The notes below the pieces were generated by a model. The model ran no database searches, was not told the DNA's origin, and saw only the letters and a list, made by a program, of their open reading frames with translations. This document shows positions 6,228 to 33,331 of a DNA stretch of 35,742 bases, one piece after another. Origin of the DNA: a virus; IMG/VR virus record IMGVR_UViG_3300034631_000069, positions 1 to 35,742 of that record; one strand, given 5' to 3'. The position numbers and the translations under genes are program-made. Positions within the stretch are counted from its first letter, which is position 1, and the number at the start of each line of letters is the position of its first letter.

Positions 6228-6379
6228 GCACCACCCAGGCGGCGCAGGCCGAAGCCACGCACGTCGAGCTGCTGGCACAGGTCGAATGCCCGCTCCCACG
6301 CGGCGGCCATGTCGGGCGCCTGCACGGGCTGCATGCGCAAGCCCGAGGGCGTGCGGTAGGTCATGGCGTAGACGCTCAC
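6224..6379 (-). CDS. Very small hypothetical early protein
   Basis: 51 residues from a GTG at 6379 that overlaps the upstream stop (GTGA); an in-frame ATG at 6364 would give 46 residues. The protein reads MTYRTPSGLRMQPVQAPDM then AAWERAFDLCQQLDVRGFGLRRLG. This looks like a strand pair followed by a helix, as in small phage regulators. No family is recognised. Support comes mainly from tight overlap with genes on both sides. Confidence 0.5.
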   Translation of the reverse strand: MSVYAMTYRTPSGLRMQPVQAPDMAAAWERAFDLCQQLDVRGFGLRRLGGA

Positions 6380-6537
6380 GATCCGCCCCGCTGCGTGCCG
6401 AGGTCCGCGACGAGGGCCGCCAGGGCGATCAGGCCCAGCGCTGCAGCCAGCCACATCAACGGCTCGGCGTTGGCTGCCATGCCGACGGTGCCCAGCACGA
6501 AGGAAACGGGGAAGACGCGGAAGGCGATCAGGCGCAT
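6376..6537 (-). CDS. Small predicted membrane protein
   Basis: 53 residues, starting MRLIAFRVFPVSFVLGTVGM. Two hydrophobic stretches are visible: residues about 3-20 and about 25-44 (EPLMWLAAALGLIALAALVADL). It is therefore probably a two-pass inner-membrane protein with a short polar tail. It overlaps the 144-residue gene upstream by 10 bases and the GTG of the next gene by 4 bases. Small membrane proteins in early phage operons can act in superinfection control, but nothing in the sequence establishes that. Confidence 0.55.
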   Translation of the reverse strand: MRLIAFRVFPVSFVLGTVGMAANAEPLMWLAAALGLIALAALVADLGTQRGGS

Positions 6538-6962
6538 GCCTTGTCCTCCAGCACGCGGTTCAGGCGGTGGGCTTCCACCGTGATGGACACAGTGAGTCGG
6601 CCTTTTTTCAGCTTCACCGTGTAGGCGCCGGTCGGGCATGGCGTGCGCTCGATTTCTTCCATGCCCTGTTCGCGCAAGACCTTTTCCAGGATGGCATTGC
6701 GTCGCGGGTCCAGAACGGGGCCGCCTACGTAGAGGACGCTATGGGCGCTGGCGCCCCAGCAGTTGATTTCCTGGGCATGTACGTTGATGCCGGCGGCGCG
6801 GACGGCCGGCATGAAGGCGTCGAACATTCGCAGGCGGGCGTCCATGCGCGCGATGGCCGCAAGGCGGCAGACGTGCCGGTCCTCTTCGGCCTGCAAGGCC
6901 TGCTCGGCCAGCGTGGGCGCTGTGCCGCCGGCAGCGCGGCGGGCGGTGCTACGTGAAGACAT
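6528..6962 (-). CDS. Hypothetical early protein
   Basis: 144 residues from the ATG at 6962, preceded by a clear GGAGGT ribosome-binding site six bases away; a longer reading upstream is unlikely. The N-terminal 45 residues are polar and helical (LAEQALQAEEDRHVCRLAA). The C-terminal part (INVHAQEINCWGASAHSVLYVGG; ILEKVLREQGMEEIERTP; YTVKLKKGRLTVSITVEAHRL) alternates strands and helices like a compact alpha/beta fold. I do not recognise a family. It is the first gene after the 117-base gap that follows the Ogr-like gene, so it could be served by its own promoter or by readthrough. Confidence 0.65.
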   Translation of the reverse strand: MSSRSTARRAAGGTAPTLAEQALQAEEDRHVCRLAAIARMDARLRMFDAFMPAVRAAGINVHAQEINCWGASAHSVLYVGGPVLDPRRNAILEKVLREQGMEEIERTPCPTGAYTVKLKKGRLTVSITVEAHRLNRVLEDKACA

Positions 6963-7551: not shown

Positions 7552-7821
7552 CTACTGCTGCACCGTGACCGACTCGCCGGCCGGCTGGTGCTCTGCGCGG
7601 TAGAGGGCAAGGCCCATCAGGTACACGCGGCGGAGGAAGTTGGCCGTGGGGCGTTCATCGGCGGCGGCCATGGCCTTGGCCTCGTCCATTTCTTCCGGGG
7701 ACAGGCGCATGCCCGCCAGGATCATGGTTTTGCGCTGCTCGGGCGCGGCCGGGGGCCGCAGGTTGCCCGCACGGCGGTTGGCGGCCACCAGGGCCTGGAA
7801 ACTCTGCTCTGCTTTAGCCAT
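7552..7821 (-). CDS. Putative ribbon-helix-helix DNA-binding protein
   Basis: 89 residues. The core GMRLSPEEMDEAKAMAAADERP followed by TANFLRRVYLMGLALYRAE has the Arc/MetJ-like pattern: a short strand, helix A, a turn, and helix B beginning with a Thr/Asn cap and carrying a LRR..LMGL face. The N-terminal part is basic and helical. It overlaps the 75-residue gene upstream by 8 bases. It may regulate the early operon or act as an excision/control factor equivalent to Cox, but P2 Cox has a different fold and nothing specific links them. Confidence 0.6.
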   Translation of the reverse strand: MAKAEQSFQALVAANRRAGNLRPPAAPEQRKTMILAGMRLSPEEMDEAKAMAAADERPTANFLRRVYLMGLALYRAEHQPAGESVTVQQ

Positions 7822-8041
7822 GCTGGCCCCCTTCGCGCCCCTCTGGCGCCTGCGTGTTGTCGATGGCCAGTTTTGGGCCTGGCCGGATGCCCGTCATCCG
7901 GTAAACGGTGTCATCGATGGCGGCGCTAATGAGCCGCTCCAGCACTGCCGTGGTGCTCGGCATGCCGTAGGCCTGCCTGAGCGCTTCCAGCCGCTCCTGC
8001 AGCTCGGCGGATACCTCCACCGTTCGTTCTTTCGTCCGCAT
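7814..8041 (-). CDS. Putative ribbon-helix-helix DNA-binding protein
   Basis: 75 residues from the ATG at 8041. The N-terminus RTVEVSAELQERLEALRQAYGMPSTTAVLERLISAAIDD is a clean ribbon-helix-helix profile: an alternating strand (RTVEVS), helix A, a turn with GMPS, and helix B capped by Thr. The C-terminal 25 residues are polar and probably disordered. It lies 17 bases downstream of the next gene up and overlaps the gene below. A role in regulation of the early operon is probable from family and position, though the target is unknown. Confidence 0.65.
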   Translation of the reverse strand: MRTKERTVEVSAELQERLEALRQAYGMPSTTAVLERLISAAIDDTVYRMTGIRPGPKLAIDNTQAPEGREGGQHG

Positions 8042-8058
8042 TGCGCATGGCTTTCGCG

Positions 8059-8286
8059 TCAGCGGTTGGCGGACATGCCGGAAGCGGTGCCGCGCTGGGC
8101 CGTGCCGGGCGCGGTGCACAAGGCCTGCAGTTCTGCTTCGGCCTGCCGAATCGCCATGTTCTCGATGAGCGTGGCTTTCTGCATGCCCAGGCGGTCGGCC
8201 AGCACCGAAATCAGCGCGTCGTCAGCCGCCTTAAAGCGCACGGTGTGGCGGACGTTTCGCCGATGCTCCGGGTTGTCGTAAGCCAT
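8059..8286 (-). CDS. First gene of the early operon, putative ribbon-helix-helix regulator
   Basis: 75 residues, starting MAYDNPEHRRNVRHTVRFKAADDALISVLADRLGMQKATLIENMAIRQAEAEL. The 'HTVRFKAADDALISVLADRLGM' segment resembles a strand followed by helix A, and 'KATLIENMAIRQAEAEL' resembles helix B, so a ribbon-helix-helix fold is plausible but less clear than in the next gene. It is the first gene opposite the repressor, the position of P2 cox, which controls the lysis-lysogeny switch and excision. A Cox-like job is therefore a reasonable positional guess. No Cox sequence similarity can be seen. Confidence 0.6.
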   Translation of the reverse strand: MAYDNPEHRRNVRHTVRFKAADDALISVLADRLGMQKATLIENMAIRQAEAELQALCTAPGTAQRGTASGMSANR

Positions 8287-8313
8287 GAGTGCTCCCTGCC
8301 AGAATTGGCGTGT

Positions 8314-8331
8314 ACCATCTTGTTAGATGGT
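8314..8331. promoter_or_regulatory. Operator-like palindrome in the lysis-lysogeny control region
   Basis: ACCATCT-TGTT-AGATGGT is a perfect 7+7 inverted repeat with a 4-base centre, placed between the divergent early operon (first ATG at 8286) and the repressor (ATG at 8393). A half-site GATGGT recurs at 8350-8355. Repressor binding here would cover the early promoter. Convincing -35/-10 hexamers could not be assigned on either strand, though AT-rich steps (TTATAT at 8333-8338) lie next to it. Confidence 0.55.
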
Positions 8332-8392
8332 GTTATATGTGGATGCACCGATGGTACGGCAATTTTCTGCCGGTCACAACAAAAATTTGCCT

Positions 8393-9097
8393 ATGTCCGA
8401 AAAAAACAAGTCAGAAACTTCCGATCGGGCGGCAATAGGAGAGCGGATGAGGGAAGAGCGCGAGCGTCTAGGGCTGAAACAGGCAGATTTCGGCCGGTAT
8501 GGAGATTGGCCGGTGCGAACCATCAGCAGCTGGGAAGCCGGCCGAACTTCGCCTAAGGCTGAGTTTTTTTCGGATGTGCATGAGCTGGGGCTGGACATCC
8601 AATACATCATCACGGGGCGGCGCTCTACTGCCCGCCTTTCCGGCCCTTTGCCAGAACCCGAATCTGTTCCCGACGCCATAGCGCTGCCGCTACTCAGCGC
8701 GACCGGCAGCATGGGCCCCGGCAATGACCTCATCACAGAAGACGTGATCCTCGGGAAGGTGCAGATTTCGCGGCGGTGGCTGGACGCGCACCTGCCGCGC
8801 AGCCGTCCCGAGGCTTTGCAGCTGGTGCACGCTTACGGCGACTCGATGGGCGACACCCTGCGATCCGGTGACTTCGCGATCGTGGACACGGACTACACCG
8901 TGGCCGACGTGAGCGGCGTCTACGTGCTGCAGGCCAACGGGCAGCTGTACATCAAGCGAGTTTCGAGGCGGCTGGATGGTCGGCACGAAATCACGAGCGA
9001 CAACCCGAACGTTCGCACCGTGGAAGTGCTGGACGGATCGCAGCCGGTGCGGATCTGCGGGCGCGTGGTGTTCGGGTGGAACGGGCGCCGGTTCTGA
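8393..9097 (+). CDS. Prophage repressor, HTH plus S24 (LexA/CI-type) peptidase domain
   Basis: 234 residues. The N-terminal part (about 13-75) is a helix-turn-helix domain: GERMREERERLGLKQADFG then TISSWEAGRTSP, as in XRE-family repressors. The C-terminal part is an S24 domain with the Ser/Lys pair Ser151 (HAYGDSMGDTLRSGD) and Lys188 (GQLYIKRVSRR). P2's own C repressor lacks such a domain, so this phage carries a lambda/LexA-style switch that may be SOS-responsive. No clear Ala-Gly or Cys-Gly autocleavage site is visible in the linker (LLSATGSMGPG), so inducibility is uncertain. The ATG at 8393 was chosen because the HTH starts soon after; in-frame ATGs at 8327 and 8351 are possible. It reads straight into the three accessory genes downstream. 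Confidence 0.88.
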   Translation: MSEKNKSETSDRAAIGERMREERERLGLKQADFGRYGDWPVRTISSWEAGRTSPKAEFFSDVHELGLDIQYIITGRRSTARLSGPLPEPESVPDAIALPLLSATGSMGPGNDLITEDVILGKVQISRRWLDAHLPRSRPEALQLVHAYGDSMGDTLRSGDFAIVDTDYTVADVSGVYVLQANGQLYIKRVSRRLDGRHEITSDNPNVRTVEVLDGSQPVRICGRVVFGWNGRRF

Positions 9098-9108
9098 GCG
9101 GAGACGAT

Positions 9109-9474
9109 ATGCAAAAAGTTCTGCTATCAGCTGCTGTGCTGCTCGCATGCGGTGGAGTTCACGCCGCAGCGTCCGAAGACATAGCGCTCGCGAAAACGGC
9201 TGCCTCGGCGATCGAGTTGGCCGCCATGACACTCCCCACTGCTGTGCGCCAGGGCGACATGGGCGATTTCAGGAAGTACATCAGCGGGCCTGTCACCGCC
9301 CAAATGGACGCGATTTCCAACCTACCGGGCCCGCGACGGTTGAACCTCATTGAATGCACCGCTGCAGGGAATGAGTTCATCAACCGCGCTACCGACAGCA
9401 TGCGTGCTCAATCCGTCAATCCTGCCGGAAGTCTCGAAAAAACAAGTCTCGCCGCGTGCAAGGCGTTGAAGTAG
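9109..9474 (+). CDS. Secreted (periplasmic) protein of unknown function
   Basis: 121 residues. A typical signal peptide opens it: MQKVLLSAAVLLACGGVHAAA, with an Ala-x-Ala cleavage site at about residues 19-21. The mature part is helical (EDIALAKTAASAIELAAMTLP; AQMDAISNLPG) and contains two cysteines (ECTAAG and AACKAL) that could pair in the periplasm. It starts 11 bases after the repressor stop, with GGAGA as ribosome-binding sequence, so it should be made in the lysogen. No family is recognised. A lysogenic-conversion role is inferred. Confidence 0.7.
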   Translation: MQKVLLSAAVLLACGGVHAAASEDIALAKTAASAIELAAMTLPTAVRQGDMGDFRKYISGPVTAQMDAISNLPGPRRLNLIECTAAGNEFINRATDSMRAQSVNPAGSLEKTSLAACKALK

Positions 9475-9512
9475 GCCGATTTTTTAACCACAACGAAGAG
9501 GGTTTCGTCATC

Positions 9513-9680
9513 ATGAGCAACGATCACAAGAAGTCGCCACCGCCACCGCCACCACCACCCCCGCGGAAATCGCCTGCGATTGAACGTCATAAACAGGGGC
9601 CTGCGGTGTCGCACGAGAGCTATGTGACTCGCAACACCAGCCCACCGCCGGCGCCGCCCGCACCCAGCCGGAATAAGTGA
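9513..9680 (+). CDS. Small proline-rich peptide
   Basis: 55 residues, with nine consecutive prolines near the N-terminus (SNDHKKSPPPPPPPPPRKSP) and a second proline cluster (SPPPAPPAPSRNK) at the C-terminus. It has no hydrophobic segment. A GAGGG ribosome-binding sequence lies 11 bases before the ATG. Polyproline stretches stall ribosomes and need EF-P, and they commonly act as protein-interaction tails. It sits between the secreted protein and the SLATT-like gene and probably belongs to the same transcript. Coding status is moderately supported because the reading frame is composition-driven; a partnership with the downstream membrane protein is a guess. Confidence 0.55.
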   Translation: MSNDHKKSPPPPPPPPPRKSPAIERHKQGPAVSHESYVTRNTSPPPAPPAPSRNK

Positions 9681-9758
9681 ATGTGGCGGCCGTTCTCAGA
9701 TTTAGCACGGGCTTTGGCACTGGCTTTGATTTGCCGATGGCCGCCCATACTCAGGTCT

Positions 9759-10298
9759 ATGAAAACCACCTCTGCAGACCCGAATCGCTGCGGTCCCAGC
9801 GATGACGAATGGAATCGCGTCTGGGCGTGCCGGTGCGAACTGTTGAACTGGGCACGCATCACCTACCGCTACCACCGCAAGCGGCAGAAGTTCTTTGACA
9901 TGGCCGACAAGCTCACACAGGTTGCCGCCGTCACGGGCGGCGTTGCGGTGCTGGGAAAAACCGTGAGCGAGTACCTGCCCTGGATCGGTGGCGGAATCTC
10001 GCTAGTTGGCTTGCTTGCGCTGGTATTTGGCTACAGCGACAAGCGCCAGTGTCACAAGGAAATCGCGGAGCGCGCAAACCGGCTTACAGGCGACATATGC
10101 AGCCTGTCCATCAATGCCCTCGATGAAAAGCAGATCAGCGTGTGGGAGCGCGTCCGCGCCGAGATTGATCTGAGCGAGCCGCCGAACCTTAAGACGCTCG
10201 TGCAGAAGTGCGAGTGGGAACAGGCTGTCGCGGACGGCCACCCGAACCACACGAAGGAGCCGCGCTGGTGGCAGCAGGCTCACATGCATTTTTTCTAG
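9759..10298 (+). CDS. Two-transmembrane SLATT-like membrane protein
   Basis: 179 residues from ATG 9759; ATG 9681, directly after the preceding stop, would add 26. After a polar N-terminus come a helix with aromatic/basic residues (WARITYRYHRKRQKFFDMADKL), two hydrophobic segments (LTQVAAVTGGVAVLGKTV and WIGGGISLVGLLALVFGY) joined by a short loop, and a long cytoplasmic helical tail (HKEIAERANRLTGDICSL). That layout matches SLATT domains, the two-TM pore-forming effectors known in CBASS-like and related defence systems. Homology is inferred from architecture, not shown. Its stop overlaps that of gene D on the other strand by four bases (CTAG). It is the third gene of the repressor-linked locus. 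Confidence 0.62.
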   Translation: MKTTSADPNRCGPSDDEWNRVWACRCELLNWARITYRYHRKRQKFFDMADKLTQVAAVTGGVAVLGKTVSEYLPWIGGGISLVGLLALVFGYSDKRQCHKEIAERANRLTGDICSLSINALDEKQISVWERVRAEIDLSEPPNLKTLVQKCEWEQAVADGHPNHTKEPRWWQQAHMHFF

Positions 10299-11344
10299 CC
10301 ATGCAGCCGGCGCTTTCGCAGCACGTGCGCGCGCTTCTTGGGCACTCCGCCGCGGCGCTCCATCTCCAGCCGCGTGGCCAGGCCTTCACCCTCGATGAAG
10401 TGCTCGACGGTCTTGCATAGCCAGTCCGTGCCGTCGATTTCTTCTTTCCAGCCCTCGACGTAGACGGGCGTCTGCGGGGCCAGCGCGGGCTGGCCTATCG
10501 CCAGCTGCAGTTCGAAGGTGGCCCCGCCGCGCTGGATGCGGCCTTGTTCTGCGCGCGCGGCGGCCAACGCGTCGGCCTCGGTGGCGTAGCTGTCCCGCAG
10601 CGTCTTCACGTTGCTTTCCTCGCCCGCGATCGCGGCGCGCTTGCTGGCGCTACCCGCGTCGTGCCAGTAGGCGCGCACGCCGGTGTAGCTGTCACGCGCC
10701 GCGGTGTGGTAGCGGTGGCGGTCGCCCTTGCTGCGGGTGATGGTGACGGCCTCGATTTCCTTTCCTGCGGCGTTCTTGGTGCTGCCCAGGGGGAGGAACA
10801 CCAGCCGGCCTTTCTTAACCGTAGCCACGGCGTCGTGCTGGCGGCCCAGGCGCGTGAGGAAGTGCACGTCCGATTCGTTGGTCTGGTCGATGTGCTGCAC
10901 GACGATGGCGGCCAGCGCCTCGTCCACCTTGGCAGTGAGCTTATTCCGCGCCGCGATGTCTCGCACGATGGTGCCGAGCGTGGCGCCGTGCCACGACTGG
11001 CTGGCGCGCTGGCGCAATGTGCTGCGCAGCTCGGCGGAGCGGCAGCGGAGGGAAACGGAGTCCGGCGCGCCGCTGTGCTCGATCTCGTCCACCGTGAACG
11101 TGCCCTTGTCCACCATGCCGGTGTGCGCGTAGCCGAGCTGTAGGGCGATGACGGCGCCCACGGGGGGCAACGCCAGATCGCCGCGGGAGTCGTCCAGCTC
11201 GATGTCGAGCTGGTCGGCTTTCTCCCCGCGGCTCTCGCGCAGGCGCAGGCGCTTGAGGCGCGGCCGCACGGCCTGGGAAACGTCCTTTCCGTTGATGATG
11301 AGGGTGTAGCGCACCTGGCGGTAGACGGCGGTGCTTTCGGTCAT
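10295..11344 (-). CDS. D: Late control/tail protein GpD (baseplate hub)
   Basis: 349 residues (P2 D is somewhat longer). GpD is the P2 gp27-like baseplate hub component. The sequence has the typical N-terminal beta domain (VRYTLIINGKDVSQAVRPRLKRLRLRES; LDIELDDSRGDLALPP), an alpha/beta region (ATLGTIVRDIAARNKLTAKVDEALAAI) and the 'IDQTNESDVHFLTRLGRQHDAVATVKKGRLVFLP' segment that is highly characteristic of this family. The start ATG at 11344 overlaps the U stop (ATGA). It ends in a basic tail (RRGGVPKKRAHVLRKRR). It is the last gene of the F-D tail operon, converging on the plus-strand accessory genes. Confidence 0.93.
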   Translation of the reverse strand: MTESTAVYRQVRYTLIINGKDVSQAVRPRLKRLRLRESRGEKADQLDIELDDSRGDLALPPVGAVIALQLGYAHTGMVDKGTFTVDEIEHSGAPDSVSLRCRSAELRSTLRQRASQSWHGATLGTIVRDIAARNKLTAKVDEALAAIVVQHIDQTNESDVHFLTRLGRQHDAVATVKKGRLVFLPLGSTKNAAGKEIEAVTITRSKGDRHRYHTAARDSYTGVRAYWHDAGSASKRAAIAGEESNVKTLRDSYATEADALAAARAEQGRIQRGGATFELQLAIGQPALAPQTPVYVEGWKEEIDGTDWLCKTVEHFIEGEGLATRLEMERRGGVPKKRAHVLRKRRLHG

Positions 11345-26572: not shown

Positions 26573-27109
26573 CTACTCGCTCCGGGCCGCGTCGATCATC
26601 TTGCGGGCGCTGTCGTGCTCGCGCTCGCAGCCCTTGCCGCGCGCGCGGGCATCGTCAGCGATTGCCGCCAGCGCTCCCGCTCGATCGTCAGCGCTGCGCT
26701 GCAGCTCGGCGAGCATATCGAGGGCGCCGGTGTCTGCCGGGCAGCTTCCGGCAGCGGCTCGATTTTGGGCGGCTTCACGATGGGCGACGATGAAGGCGGC
26801 GAGGTCGCTGCGCAGCCGGTCGCGAGCAGCGAGGGCAGCATCAGCATCAGCGCGAGCGCCGGCAATGTCCGCCGCGCCCTTGGCGCGCGAGGTGTTGAGT
26901 TCTTCACGGTGGGTTCCTTCCAGCCCGCGGAGGCGTTCGGATTGTTCGCGCGCGGTGCGGTCGGCCGCGGCGCGTTCGGTCTGCAGATCGGCGTGGGCCT
27001 GCGCGGCGTCCACTTCCGCGTCGGCCAGCCGCAGCGTCTGCCACAGCAGCAGGCTGGCGAGGCCGAGGGCGGCCAGCTGCCAGGCGTAGCCCTTGATCGC
27101 GCCGATCAT
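26573..27109 (-). CDS. Inner-membrane spanin, Rz-type (DUF2514-like)
   Basis: 178 residues. Spanins fuse inner and outer membranes at the last step of lysis. Residues about 8-26 form one transmembrane helix (YAWQLAALGLASLLLWQTL); the rest is a periplasmic coiled coil (EVDAAQAHADLQTERAAADRTAREQSERLRGLEG; DADAALAARDRLRSDLAAFIVAH). The final stretch (DRAGALAAIADDARARGKGCEREHDSARKMIDAAR) is the DUF2514 signature. The lipoprotein partner is nested in another frame. Its ATG overlaps the lysozyme stop (27106) by four bases. Confidence 0.88.
   Translation of the reverse strand: MIGAIKGYAWQLAALGLASLLLWQTLRLADAEVDAAQAHADLQTERAAADRTAREQSERLRGLEGTHREELNTSRAKGAADIAGARADADAALAARDRLRSDLAAFIVAHREAAQNRAAAGSCPADTGALDMLAELQRSADDRAGALAAIADDARARGKGCEREHDSARKMIDAARSE
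26596..26907 (-). CDS. Outer-membrane spanin lipoprotein Rz1, nested in Rz
   Basis: 103 residues in an alternative frame inside the Rz gene. It has a lipoprotein signal: basic start (MKNSTPRAPRARR), hydrophobic core (TLPALALMLMLPSLLATG) and lipobox Cys33 (LLATGCAA). After the Cys it is proline-rich (SPPSSSPIVKPPKIEPLP), typical of Rz1 proteins, then a further helical segment. Nested Rz/Rz1 pairs are a known feature of phage lysis cassettes. The start ATG at 26907 is the only sensible one. Confidence 0.85.
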   Translation of the reverse strand: MKNSTPRAPRARRTLPALALMLMLPSLLATGCAATSPPSSSPIVKPPKIEPLPEAARQTPAPSICSPSCSAALTIERERWRQSLTMPARAARAASASTTAPAR

Positions 27110-27645
27110 TGCTGCATCTCCATGCAGGCGTCGTGCCGGCGCAGTTGGCGCAGCCACACGCCGCGGCATCCGGTCGGGCCCCAATTGCGCGGCTCGCGAC
27201 AGTCGCGGCCGGCCTGGAAGCGCCACTGCAGCAGATCGCGGCAGGCTCGCACGTAGTCGCCCCGCAGCAGCGATGTGCGCGGGCTTCCGGGCTTGCGCCA
27301 GTTGCCGATCCCGTACTGGCCGACGAAATCCATGTAGAGGTCGAATTCGCCCGGGTAGAGGGTGACGCCTGGCAGGGACGCGACGAACCTGCGTTCGTCT
27401 TCCTGCGCGAGGTTGCGGGCGAGCGCCGCCGCGCGTTGGCGCGAAATCGGTGGATCGCTCATGCGCACCGGGGTGCCGTCTTCGTAGCGGGTGGACCCGT
27501 GCCCGATGGTGGGCACGTCGCCCGCCACCGGGATGATGGGCGTAGCGCTGAATCCCTCGTTCGCCTGCCACGCGCCGAAGCCCGCGGCCGACAGGGTGAG
27601 GGCCGCGACTGCCACGCGCAGCGCTGATTGCTTCACCTGTTCCAT
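27106..27645 (-). CDS. Phage lysozyme (endolysin) with N-terminal signal-anchor
   Basis: 179 residues. It cuts the peptidoglycan sugar backbone. An N-terminal weakly hydrophobic, Ala-rich segment (ALRVAVAALTLSAAGFGAW, about 8-26) looks like a SAR (signal-arrest-release) anchor, so export may not need holin. Candidate active residues are Glu30, Asp43 and Thr46 in NEGFSATPIIPVAGDVPTIGHG. The Asp lies further from the Glu than in T4-type lysozymes, as in a known phage GH24 subgroup. The ATG at 27645 has GGAGGA four bases upstream; an adjacent ATG at 27648 abuts the ribosome site. It overlaps the holin stop and is followed by the spanin. Confidence 0.88.
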   Translation of the reverse strand: MEQVKQSALRVAVAALTLSAAGFGAWQANEGFSATPIIPVAGDVPTIGHGSTRYEDGTPVRMSDPPISRQRAAALARNLAQEDERRFVASLPGVTLYPGEFDLYMDFVGQYGIGNWRKPGSPRTSLLRGDYVRACRDLLQWRFQAGRDCREPRNWGPTGCRGVWLRQLRRHDACMEMQQ

Positions 27646-27851
27646 CATTCCTCCACGATGGAGCCGCCGCGTGCGGCGCGGTGCCAGCGCCAGAGCAACC
27701 ATGCAATCTGCAGCAGCAGATAGACGATGGTGAGCGCTGCTACCGTGTGGTTGATGGTCCAGTCCTTCGCGATGGACGTGCCCACCACTGCGATGGGGGG
27801 CGACGCCTTCGCGGCCTCTCCTGCAATGTCTTTCAGCATTTCTTTGCTCAT
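27645..27851 (-). CDS. Probable holin
   Basis: 68 residues. One strong hydrophobic segment spans about residues 31-52 (INHTVAALTIVYLLLQIAWLLW), preceded by a weaker one (SPPIAVVGTSIA) and flanked by a basic tail (RWHRAARGG). Size, charge and position, directly before the lysozyme and after X, fit a small holin. The ATG at 27851 follows the X stop by 5 bases. It shares the stop region with the lysozyme start (TGATG). The number of membrane passes is uncertain. Confidence 0.75.
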   Translation of the reverse strand: MSKEMLKDIAGEAAKASPPIAVVGTSIAKDWTINHTVAALTIVYLLLQIAWLLWRWHRAARGGSIVEE

Positions 27852-31385: not shown

Positions 31386-31483
31386 ATGTTCCGCACCCGG
31401 GCCTTGCGGCGCAATTTGCGCGCGCTGTGGGGGGGCGAAGCACACTTCGCCGCGCGTGCTTTCCGCGCGCGCGCGAAACACAC
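31386..31483. promoter_or_regulatory. Divergent candidate late promoters for O and P sharing one dyad
   Basis: A TGT-N13-ACA dyad (31426-31444), with an inner GGCGAAG-CACA-CTTCGCC palindrome (31434-31451), lies midway between O and P. On the minus strand CACAGC is followed 34 bases on by ACAT (31386-31389), leaving a leader of about 29 bases to O. On the plus strand ACAC lies at the matching distance (31480-31483), leaving only a few bases to P. Another palindrome GCGCAATTTGCGC lies at 31409-31421. Confidence 0.62.
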
Positions 31484-31492
31484 TGCCCAGGC

Positions 31493-33331
31493 ATGACCGA
31501 AGCAGCAGCCACGCCCACCACCAGCGCCCCCCGCCGCCCGAGGAAGCGGCCCAGCGCGAGCGCGGCGACCCAGCTCACCGACTCCATCGACGGCGGCGCG
31601 AGCAAACGCCGTGACGCGCGCACGCTGTTCTGGAGCGGCTGGAAACTCACGCACATCTCGGAGCACCTCGGCGTTCCGCGCGCCACCCTGCACGGCTGGC
31701 ACAAGGCGGAGAAATGGGCGGAGGCATCGCCCGCGCAGCGCGTCGAAGGCGCACTGGAAGTTCGCCTGGCCACGTTGATCGCGAAGGACTGCAAGACGGG
31801 CGGCGACTACAAGGAAATCGACTTGCTGGGCCGGCAGCTGGAGCGGCTTGCGCGCATTGGCAAGTACCAGCAGACGGGCCGCGAAGTGGATCTGAATCCC
31901 GCGATCGCGTCGCGCAACGCGAGCCCCAAGAAGCCGCCGGTAAAGAACTTCCTTTCCCCGGAACAGGTGCAGCAGCTCAAGTCCGCCTTCTTGGACTCGC
32001 TATTCGACTATCAGCGGGTGTGGTGGGACGAGCGCGATCAGCGCACGCGCGCGATCCTGAAAAGCCGGCAGATCGGAGCGACGTGGTATTTCGCTCGCGA
32101 AGCGTTGATTGATGCGCTGGAGACCGGCCGGAATCAGATCTTCCTGTCAGCCAGCAAGGCGCAGGCGTACATCTTCCGGCAGTACATCCGCGCGTTCGTT
32201 TTTCAGGTTCTGGGCGTCGAATTGAAGGGCGACCCCATCGTGCTGGCCAATGGCGCCGAGCTGTACTTTCTCGGGAGCAACGCGCGCACGGCACAGGGCT
32301 ACCACGGCAATTTCTACTTCGACGAGTTCTTCTGGGCCCAGGATTTCGAGCGGCTCAATACGGTGGCCAGCGGCATGGCCATGCACAAGAAGTGGCGCAA
32401 GACCTACTTCAGCACGCCCAGCAGCGTCCAGCACCCGGCCTACGCATTCTGGTCCGGCGAGCGGATCAAGAAGAAGACGAAGGTGGAGGTAGACATCACC
32501 CACGGGCGGCTGGCTGGAGGTTTCACCGGCGAGGACCGCGTATGGCGTCACATCGTCAACATCCTTGATGCGCTCGAAGGTGGCTGCAACCTGTTCGACC
32601 TGGAAGAGCTGCGCCTAGAGTATTCCGATGCGGCGTTCGCCAACCTGCTCATGTGCGGGTTCGTGGACGACTCGTTTTCCGTCTTCCCGCTCTCGATGCT
32701 GCAGCCCTGCATGGTCGATAGCTGGGAGGTCTGGAGCGACTTCAAGCCATTCAGCGAGCGTCCCTTCGGCTGGTCCCCGGTGTGGGTGGGGTATGACCCA
32801 TCGCACACCGGCGACAGCGCCGGCCTCGTGGTGGTCGCGCCGCCCGCTGTGCCCGGCGGCCCGCTTCGTGTGCTGCACACGGAGCAGTTCAAGGGCCAGG
32901 ACTTCGAGGCGCAAGCCAAAGCGATCAAGGCCATCACCGAACGCTACAACGTCGCCGCTATCACGGTGGATACCACCGGCATCGGCCAGGGCGTTTTCCA
33001 GCTGGTGCAGAAGTTCTTCCCGGCCGCGCGCGGCATCAATTACAGCGTCGAGAGCAAGACCATGTTGGTGCTCAAGGCGCAGCAAGTCATCAACGCCGGC
33101 CGGCTGCAGTTCGACGCCGGGAACCGCGACTTGGCCGTGAGCTTCATGGCCATCAAGCGCGAGCTGACGGCGAGCGGTCGCAGCGTGACCTATGCCGCGG
33201 GCCGAAGCGAAGACGCGGGGCATGCCGACCTGGCATGGGCCTGCATGAATGCGCTGTCGAACGAGCCGCTCGACGTGGGCACCGGCCTGGCCAACGTGCA
33301 GGGCCAATCCTTCCTTGAAATCTCCGAATGA
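31493..33331 (+). CDS. P: Terminase large (ATPase) subunit GpP
   Basis: 612 residues (P2 P about 590). Cuts and pumps DNA into the head. An N-terminal helix-turn-helix (WKLTHISEHLGVPRATLHGWHKAEKW, about 49-75) probably recognises DNA. The ATPase motor has the deviant Walker A KSRQIGAT (about 190-197), coupling segment 'QAYIFRQYIRAFVFQ' and Walker B FYFDEFF (about 274-280). The nuclease domain shows YDPSHTG, ITVDTTGIGQG and HADLAWACMNAL. Reads into Q with a four-base overlap. The promoter leaves nearly no leader; the short sequence CCCAGGCATG around the start resembles that at V. Confidence 0.96.
   Translation: MTEAAATPTTSAPRRPRKRPSASAATQLTDSIDGGASKRRDARTLFWSGWKLTHISEHLGVPRATLHGWHKAEKWAEASPAQRVEGALEVRLATLIAKDCKTGGDYKEIDLLGRQLERLARIGKYQQTGREVDLNPAIASRNASPKKPPVKNFLSPEQVQQLKSAFLDSLFDYQRVWWDERDQRTRAILKSRQIGATWYFAREALIDALETGRNQIFLSASKAQAYIFRQYIRAFVFQVLGVELKGDPIVLANGAELYFLGSNARTAQGYHGNFYFDEFFWAQDFERLNTVASGMAMHKKWRKTYFSTPSSVQHPAYAFWSGERIKKKTKVEVDITHGRLAGGFTGEDRVWRHIVNILDALEGGCNLFDLEELRLEYSDAAFANLLMCGFVDDSFSVFPLSMLQPCMVDSWEVWSDFKPFSERPFGWSPVWVGYDPSHTGDSAGLVVVAPPAVPGGPLRVLHTEQFKGQDFEAQAKAIKAITERYNVAAITVDTTGIGQGVFQLVQKFFPAARGINYSVESKTMLVLKAQQVINAGRLQFDAGNRDLAVSFMAIKRELTASGRSVTYAAGRSEDAGHADLAWACMNALSNEPLDVGTGLANVQGQSFLEISE

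Follow-up and report, generated by a model that had tools for sequence, protein, structure and literature searches.

Why does a P2-like prophage carry three genes on the strand of its repressor, amid neighbours that are read from the other strand, and which of the three belong together? The window analysed here, a virus contig of 35,742 bases from IMG/VR, is P2-like, with Pfam or PHROG matches for its gpD, tape-measure-type, terminase and GpA-type replication genes. A CI-like repressor with HTH and peptidase S24 domains (8327-9097, plus strand; Pfam Peptidase_S24 3.9e-14, HTH_3 3.1e-7; PHROG transcriptional repressor 4e-33) heads a putative lysogeny operon. It is followed on the plus strand by genes for a secreted-type protein of 121 aa (9109-9474), a small proline-rich tail protein of 55 aa (9513-9680) and a SLATT-like two-TM membrane protein of 179 aa (9759-10298), with gaps, from the repressor through the two-TM gene, of 11, 38 and 78 bp. 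A sequence-only reading of this DNA had described such a closely spaced plus-strand trio, and the open reading frames bear it out. Its further statement that everything around lies on the minus strand holds for the immediate neighbours, namely small genes within 7552-8286, one of them Arc-like (PHROG 7e-10), and gpD (10295-11344) directly after the cassette, but fails further out, where the terminase gene (31427-33331) lies on the plus strand. No Rfam match was found in 8000-10600. A longer two-TM gene starting at 9681 was rejected as unlikely because the frame is closed at that point in L002, a relative whose two-TM protein is 92% identical to that of the window.

Do the three genes form a fixed module, as had been proposed? 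We rejected this arrangement, as only the tail protein and the two-TM protein travel together. Acidovorax phages Alfacinha1 and Alfacinha3 are the only records in which the secreted gene was detected (2 of 50,697 phage records, both 63.6% identical), and its slot otherwise holds unrelated proteins or nothing. The protein itself agrees with its first description: behind a hydrophobic N-terminus with one cysteine, judged by eye to be a signal peptide, two further cysteines lie in the mature part. No relatives were detected in viral contigs by a single-protein scan, which detects close relatives only, and the PDB held no match better than E 1.6. The counterpart in Alfacinha1 (Peduoviridae), an ORF without annotation, comes immediately behind the repressor. 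In L002 a tRNA_anti-like protein fills the slot, and in other loci a product with a hydrophobic N-terminus (by eye) is often found between repressor and tail gene; ten slot products were tested, with DUF4124 in three (one below cut-off) and a sub-threshold HNH match in one (L030). The slot is empty in L003, L033 and phage TC7. The secreted gene is a passenger of this variable slot. Could secreted, tail and membrane proteins jointly block the DNA entry of other phages without cell death? Such envelope superinfection exclusion would suit the frequent hydrophobic N-termini, but a slot that is filled by unrelated proteins, or by none, argues against it, and we consider it unlikely.

Two details of the slot were recorded on the way. 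In Alfacinha1, two successive secreted-type genes (by eye) follow the repressor (L005:6001-6363 and 6377-6817), the first of them unannotated. A secreted-type protein with an HNH-like domain is encoded at L030:4398-4715 (Pfam HNH 0.0036, below cut-off), and an HNH-like secreted-type ORF (by eye) lies upstream of the tail ORF of L129; both are possible nucleases in the lysogeny operon.

What is conserved across sequences is the pair of genes at the end, for the small tail protein and the two-TM protein. Viral contigs, genomes and phage TC7 supplied relatives of the two-TM protein, which were assembled into a set of 39 loci that includes the window and excludes L011 (a near-copy of L010), L012 (which starts inside the gene) and L039 (the same as L021); the repeats L006-L009, L016-L020 and L040 and the fragments L038, L046, L047, L057 and L058 were never part of it. 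By a mechanical rule, an ORF of 35-140 codons with at least six prolines in its last 20 residues was sought whose end lay between -300 and +40 from the two-TM start. Such an ORF is present in 29 of the 39 loci, the window included, against 598 of 21,881 control anchors (2.7%). By eye, a small proline-tailed ORF stands just upstream of the two-TM gene in 38 of the 39, a reading made once the tail had become clear and weakest for L053 and L055. Nine of the ten loci that the rule missed (L031, L033, L036, L043, L044, L049, L051, L053 and L055) have a similar tail with fewer prolines; in the tenth, L042, a different protein (CAP12/Pycsar TIR) occupies the place of the tail gene. Six genome loci added later have the tail in five cases (L071-L074 and L076) and lack it in the divergent L075. 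One motif match, L019, was dropped as chance, as it lies among apparent phage structural genes with no pair nearby.

A scan with a distant subfamily yielded 49 viral loci, 47 of which were used; L135 and L136, partial matches, were excluded, and L115 and L134 are weak cases. The tail motif [ND]T-x(1-3)-PP, chosen on these same loci, occurs in 32 of the 47 versus none of 15,740 control anchors. Any proline tail occurs in 38 of the 47 and in 1,770 of the 15,740 control anchors; with 11.2% of controls positive, only the narrower motif is telling in this set. Of the nine loci without a proline tail by this count, eight were inspected and each has an [ND]T tail; the ninth is L127. Throughout, counts across loci are not independent because the loci are related.

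Is the tail ORF a gene? When the last 16 codons are compared between relatives, most differences fall at third codon positions. The differences at positions 1, 2 and 3 are 0, 0 and 7 for L034/L035, 0, 0 and 5 for L022/L024, 2, 0 and 13 for L028/L024, and 3, 1 and 8 for the window and L002; pairs of unequal length (for example L030/L034, with 5, 7 and 7) were compared out of register and are uninformative. By this excess at third positions, the tail ORF is a coding gene under selection. Its tail comes in three versions: TRN-x-x-P in the group of the window, V-x-[FY]-[ST]-P in the group around L022-L035 and [ND]T-x-PP in the distant group. We judged these to be one element by their position, C-terminal place and composition. 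Tandem copies, two or three in number, are present in L003, L004, L015 and L024. The 55-aa protein of the window has no domain match in Pfam/PHROG-type searches, and the tail ORF of phage TC7 is unannotated; the cassette allows annotation of small genes that are missing from some records.

What of the polyproline run that first drew attention to this gene? The 55-residue product of 9513-9680 does contain nine successive prolines, besides a proline-rich C-terminal tail (VTRNTSPPPAPPAPSRNK). A search of the 900 bases before the two-TM gene for CCN codons, whatever the frame, finds runs 8 to 33 codons long in 17 of the 39 loci. We rejected the run as a defining feature: many members that lack it keep the proline-rich tail, which is the more constant of the two, the run being optional. 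The run could in principle be a translation-attenuation device, in which ribosomes stalling without EF-P would control the membrane protein encoded close behind. The 17 loci would accommodate this, but a run absent from many tailed members, and membrane genes some of which apparently have a leaderless start of their own, make it very improbable.

In what settings does the pair occur? The linkage to the repressor seen in the window recurs in many relatives: upstream candidates picked by eye gave repressor-type matches (HTH, CI or S24) in 10 of 10 cases, eight of them over the curated cut-off. A P2-type gpD lies downstream of the cassette in L002, L003, L004, L033, L036 and L043; L023 is Mu-like (MuA match 2.9e-7); and Pseudomonas phage TC7, whose annotated NinG and replication P genes mark it as lambda-like, has repressor C, tail ORF and two-TM gene one after the other. 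Carriers of the cassette are P2-like and Mu-like phages and, probably, lambda-like phages. The two-TM family is uncommon in genomes, with 7 of 399, 9 of 399, 4 of 369 (A3) and 8 of 299 (A5) genomes in surveys that overlap, and 4 of 48 in the class of G1201 (A8). Since the repressor is so often close by, the membrane protein might anchor it or sense on its behalf, and so control the lysis-lysogeny switch. Against this stand L029 and L030, where no repressor was seen near the pair in the 2.2 kb inspected, and the relatives on plasmids L080 and L082, where none is annotated in the part fetched (the gene tables being incomplete); we think this reading quite improbable.

Some 900-1,540 bases ahead of the two-TM gene, a candidate motif that resembles RHIM (G-x-[AS]-[IV]-Q-[IV]-G-x-V-x-G type) sits at the C-terminus of the repressor and in the N-terminal region of the next gene in L022, L023, L024 and L034, as well as in L027 (partly by eye); L035 has it in a single ORF. 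Such patterns also match unrelated frames. The bacterial amyloid signalling motif BASS3 is described as homologous to RHIM (PMC12261475).

What kind of protein is the conserved membrane partner? It matches PHROG 11791 (1.7e-19), a family without assigned function. The AlphaFold model of the window protein (pLDDT 83.3) predicts a hairpin of two long helices joined by a short loop, with three shorter helices. In 40 aligned members, there is a clear hydropathy peak centred at 82 (mean 1.8) and a weak one at 61-64 (about 1.06), with K/R on both outer flanks of the membrane segments. The two membrane segments of the earlier description stand as a predicted hairpin with one clear hydropathy peak, the first segment being weakly hydrophobic.

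The likeness to SLATT proteins, also proposed at the outset, holds for the predicted fold and for weak sequence hints in distant members, but not for profile searches with the window protein. When the window model was compared with viral models by Foldseek, 11 among the best 30 rows listed were named SLATT (probability 0.99-1.00, E 2e-3 to 0.16, TM-score 0.41-0.61, rmsd roughly 6 to 15), the other rows being mostly uncharacterised proteins; no match fell under 1e-3, and against the PDB there was no match (best E 0.85). The model of a distant member, L045 (pLDDT 90.7), found largely the same targets, again with 11 of the best 30 named SLATT (probability 0.90-1.00). The SLATT structures matched are predicted, not solved. 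VIA-align Z values of up to 9.2 were left unused, as such values are common among long-helix proteins. A PDB sequence search with the family profile gave no match, and neither SLATT nor PADLOC profiles match the window protein; absence of a SLATT profile match was among the outcomes that the sequence-only reading had said would refute it. In the 40 members, Pfam SLATT_1 is hit in four (best E 0.062; three score 12.3-13.6 bits against a cut-off of 26.3), the PADLOC 2TM effector (CBASS) in three (best 2.2e-5) and the RT-associated SLATT profile in one (0.012). Alignment of the family with a thin SLATT_1 alignment of five sequences by hhalign gave a probability of 13.8 and E 0.002. The sequence link is weak and below threshold; we therefore call the protein SLATT-like, by predicted fold, and do not file it as a member of SLATT (SMODS and SLOG-associating two-TM effector; SLATT_1, PF18181).

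The two have in common a two-TM hairpin with long flanking helices, viral SLATT proteins being the nearest named predicted folds; in L042 the two-TM gene has a TIR neighbour, a possible link to a defence partner. The family differs from SLATT in having no profile match over the Pfam cut-off, blocks of its own (YHxxRQxFFD and, later, PPxLxTLxxxCE) and the tail-protein partner. SLATT proteins have been predicted to be pore-forming effectors (PMC7159879).

A two-TM hairpin would also suit a holin or antiholin. Might the pair time lysis, with the small protein as regulator? In L023, the cassette stands directly before a T7-lysozyme-like amidase (T7 lysozyme 1.7e-14), and the annotation of L079 places a lytic transglycosylase one gene beyond it; both would also fit a lysis role. 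However, the lysozyme-like gene of the window (27106-27702; weak match, 8.2e-4) is a separate gene far from the cassette, which is followed directly by gpD, and a holin would not usually have such long helices outside the membrane part, nor a TIR gene next to it as in L042. On balance, we find lysis timing improbable.

Which known systems does the pair resemble? Lambda RexAB, its Pseudomonas putida counterpart RexABpp and the pairs of Sbash, CarolAnn and Butters are two-gene prophage systems of one cytoplasmic and one membrane protein (PMC12894663, PMC7542560). RexAB and RexABpp lie downstream of a repressor, CI-like for RexABpp, and RexBpp damages membranes once activated (PMC12894663). The window has the same type of layout, with two genes downstream of the repressor, one of them for a membrane protein. 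However, the membrane parts of those pairs have four TM segments and RexApp binds DNA, whereas here there are two TM segments and a small proline-rich protein; the parts are unrelated and the resemblance is one of layout. DRT10 (PMC12632851) joins a reverse transcriptase, an ncRNA and repetitive cDNA to a SLATT protein that is needed for defence; its authors suggest that a repetitive polymer may neutralise that protein ahead of infection. The SLATT partner in DRT10 is RT plus ncRNA, in contrast to the small proline-rich protein of the cassette. In the P2-like phage AC1, TIR and membrane proteins at a P2-like locus give defence (PMC9122126). L042, which has CI repressor, CAP12/Pycsar TIR protein (3.8e-26) and SLATT-like gene in that order, resembles AC1 and the CBASS two-TM effectors, but no nucleotide-signal enzyme or defence partner was recognised at the window locus, and L042 is alone among the loci inspected in having a TIR. 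Type II toxin-antitoxin systems are similar in layout only, with a small partner beside a candidate toxic protein.

What, then, would the pair do? We propose, with an even balance of confidence and doubt, that the last two genes are a prophage, repressor-linked, RexAB-like abortive-infection pair in which the tail protein controls the SLATT-like effector. By analogy with other SLATT proteins, the hairpin protein would oligomerise and depolarise or permeabilise the inner membrane. The small protein, presumably disordered, would bind the cytoplasmic part of the membrane protein with its proline-rich C-terminal tail; in the lysogen, this binding would keep the membrane protein inactive or relay an infection signal. 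Superinfection would lift the restraint, the membrane protein would act, and cell death or growth arrest would precede the release of foreign phage. Sequence shows the pair, the coding selection, a repressor upstream in many of the loci read, a predicted fold like that of SLATT, the replacement by a TIR protein in L042 and two fusions of the tail; we infer disorder, binding, pore formation and defence. The same pair recurs in several kinds of related virus and may be a means, not described before, by which a resident virus protects its host. Among the matches listed from open-licence papers, none describes a tail protein paired with a SLATT-like protein. SLATT and RexAB-type systems are already known; new here is a SLATT-like, repressor-linked two-gene system with an undescribed partner. 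A cassette whose partner is recognisable by its tail, with fusions that name candidate baits, would give a direct route to how SLATT effectors are restrained and released, also for DRT10.

The two fusions hint at what the part before the tail might be for. In L071 (103-888), a TPR protein ending in a proline-rich tail lies directly before the SLATT-like gene. On plasmid pAtS4b (L082:3082-3999), an almost full-length ribosomal protein uS2 (query residues 4-256; best 2.1e-84) ends in a proline-rich tail, and its stop codon is 10 bases before the SLATT-like gene. These fusions suggest that the part before the tail can vary, as a bait would.

How does the effector gene start? In the window, a possible -10-like hexamer, CATACT (9746-9751, plus strand), is separated by a 7-base gap (up to 9758) from the ATG of the two-TM gene, with no Shine-Dalgarno sequence by the pattern used, a possible leaderless start. 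At the same distance, 6 or 7 bases before the two-TM ATG, a CACAAT box is found in 10 of the 39 loci against 3 of 4,895 control ATGs, and a relaxed -10-like form in 15 of the 39 against 155 of the 4,895; the start codons of L014, L026 and L027 had been moved upstream by hand before this count. By start type, the 39 loci divide into 15 with the -10-like string, six with an SD-like sequence and 18 with neither. A sigma-70 promoter scan found no promoter. The box fits a promoter that would possibly yield a leaderless two-TM message, and 10 to 15 of the 39 loci have an effector gene that looks leaderless.

These features allow a bolder and, in our estimate, unlikely version of the proposal: a bait-and-plug immune switch on prophages and plasmids, in which the proline-rich tail would hold the SLATT-like effector while the bait before the tail reports attack. 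Candidate baits would be the disordered chain, the polyproline run, which only a healthy translation apparatus could make, the TPR repeats of L071 and a decoy uS2 on the plasmid of L082. Infection would upset translation or strip the bait, and the tail would then release the effector. Ribosomes lacking S2 favour leaderless mRNAs, so that synthesis of an effector with a leaderless start may rise just as the bait fails. If true, the switch would be a bacterial counterpart of integrated-decoy guarding, one that watches the ribosome. With the uS2 and TPR fusions, the guarding of ribosomes or proteins becomes open to experiment.

The SLATT-like gene of L071 was flagged in the genome survey for one TGA inside the match, yet its frame (892-1431) is open. 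At L002:6643-7612 and G001:C22:58662-58799, the intact two-TM gene is followed after about 0.9 kb by a second, C-terminal fragment of its protein, and between the two a HicAB-like pair (by eye) sits on the other strand. The fragment is probably the remnant of an insertion or duplication.
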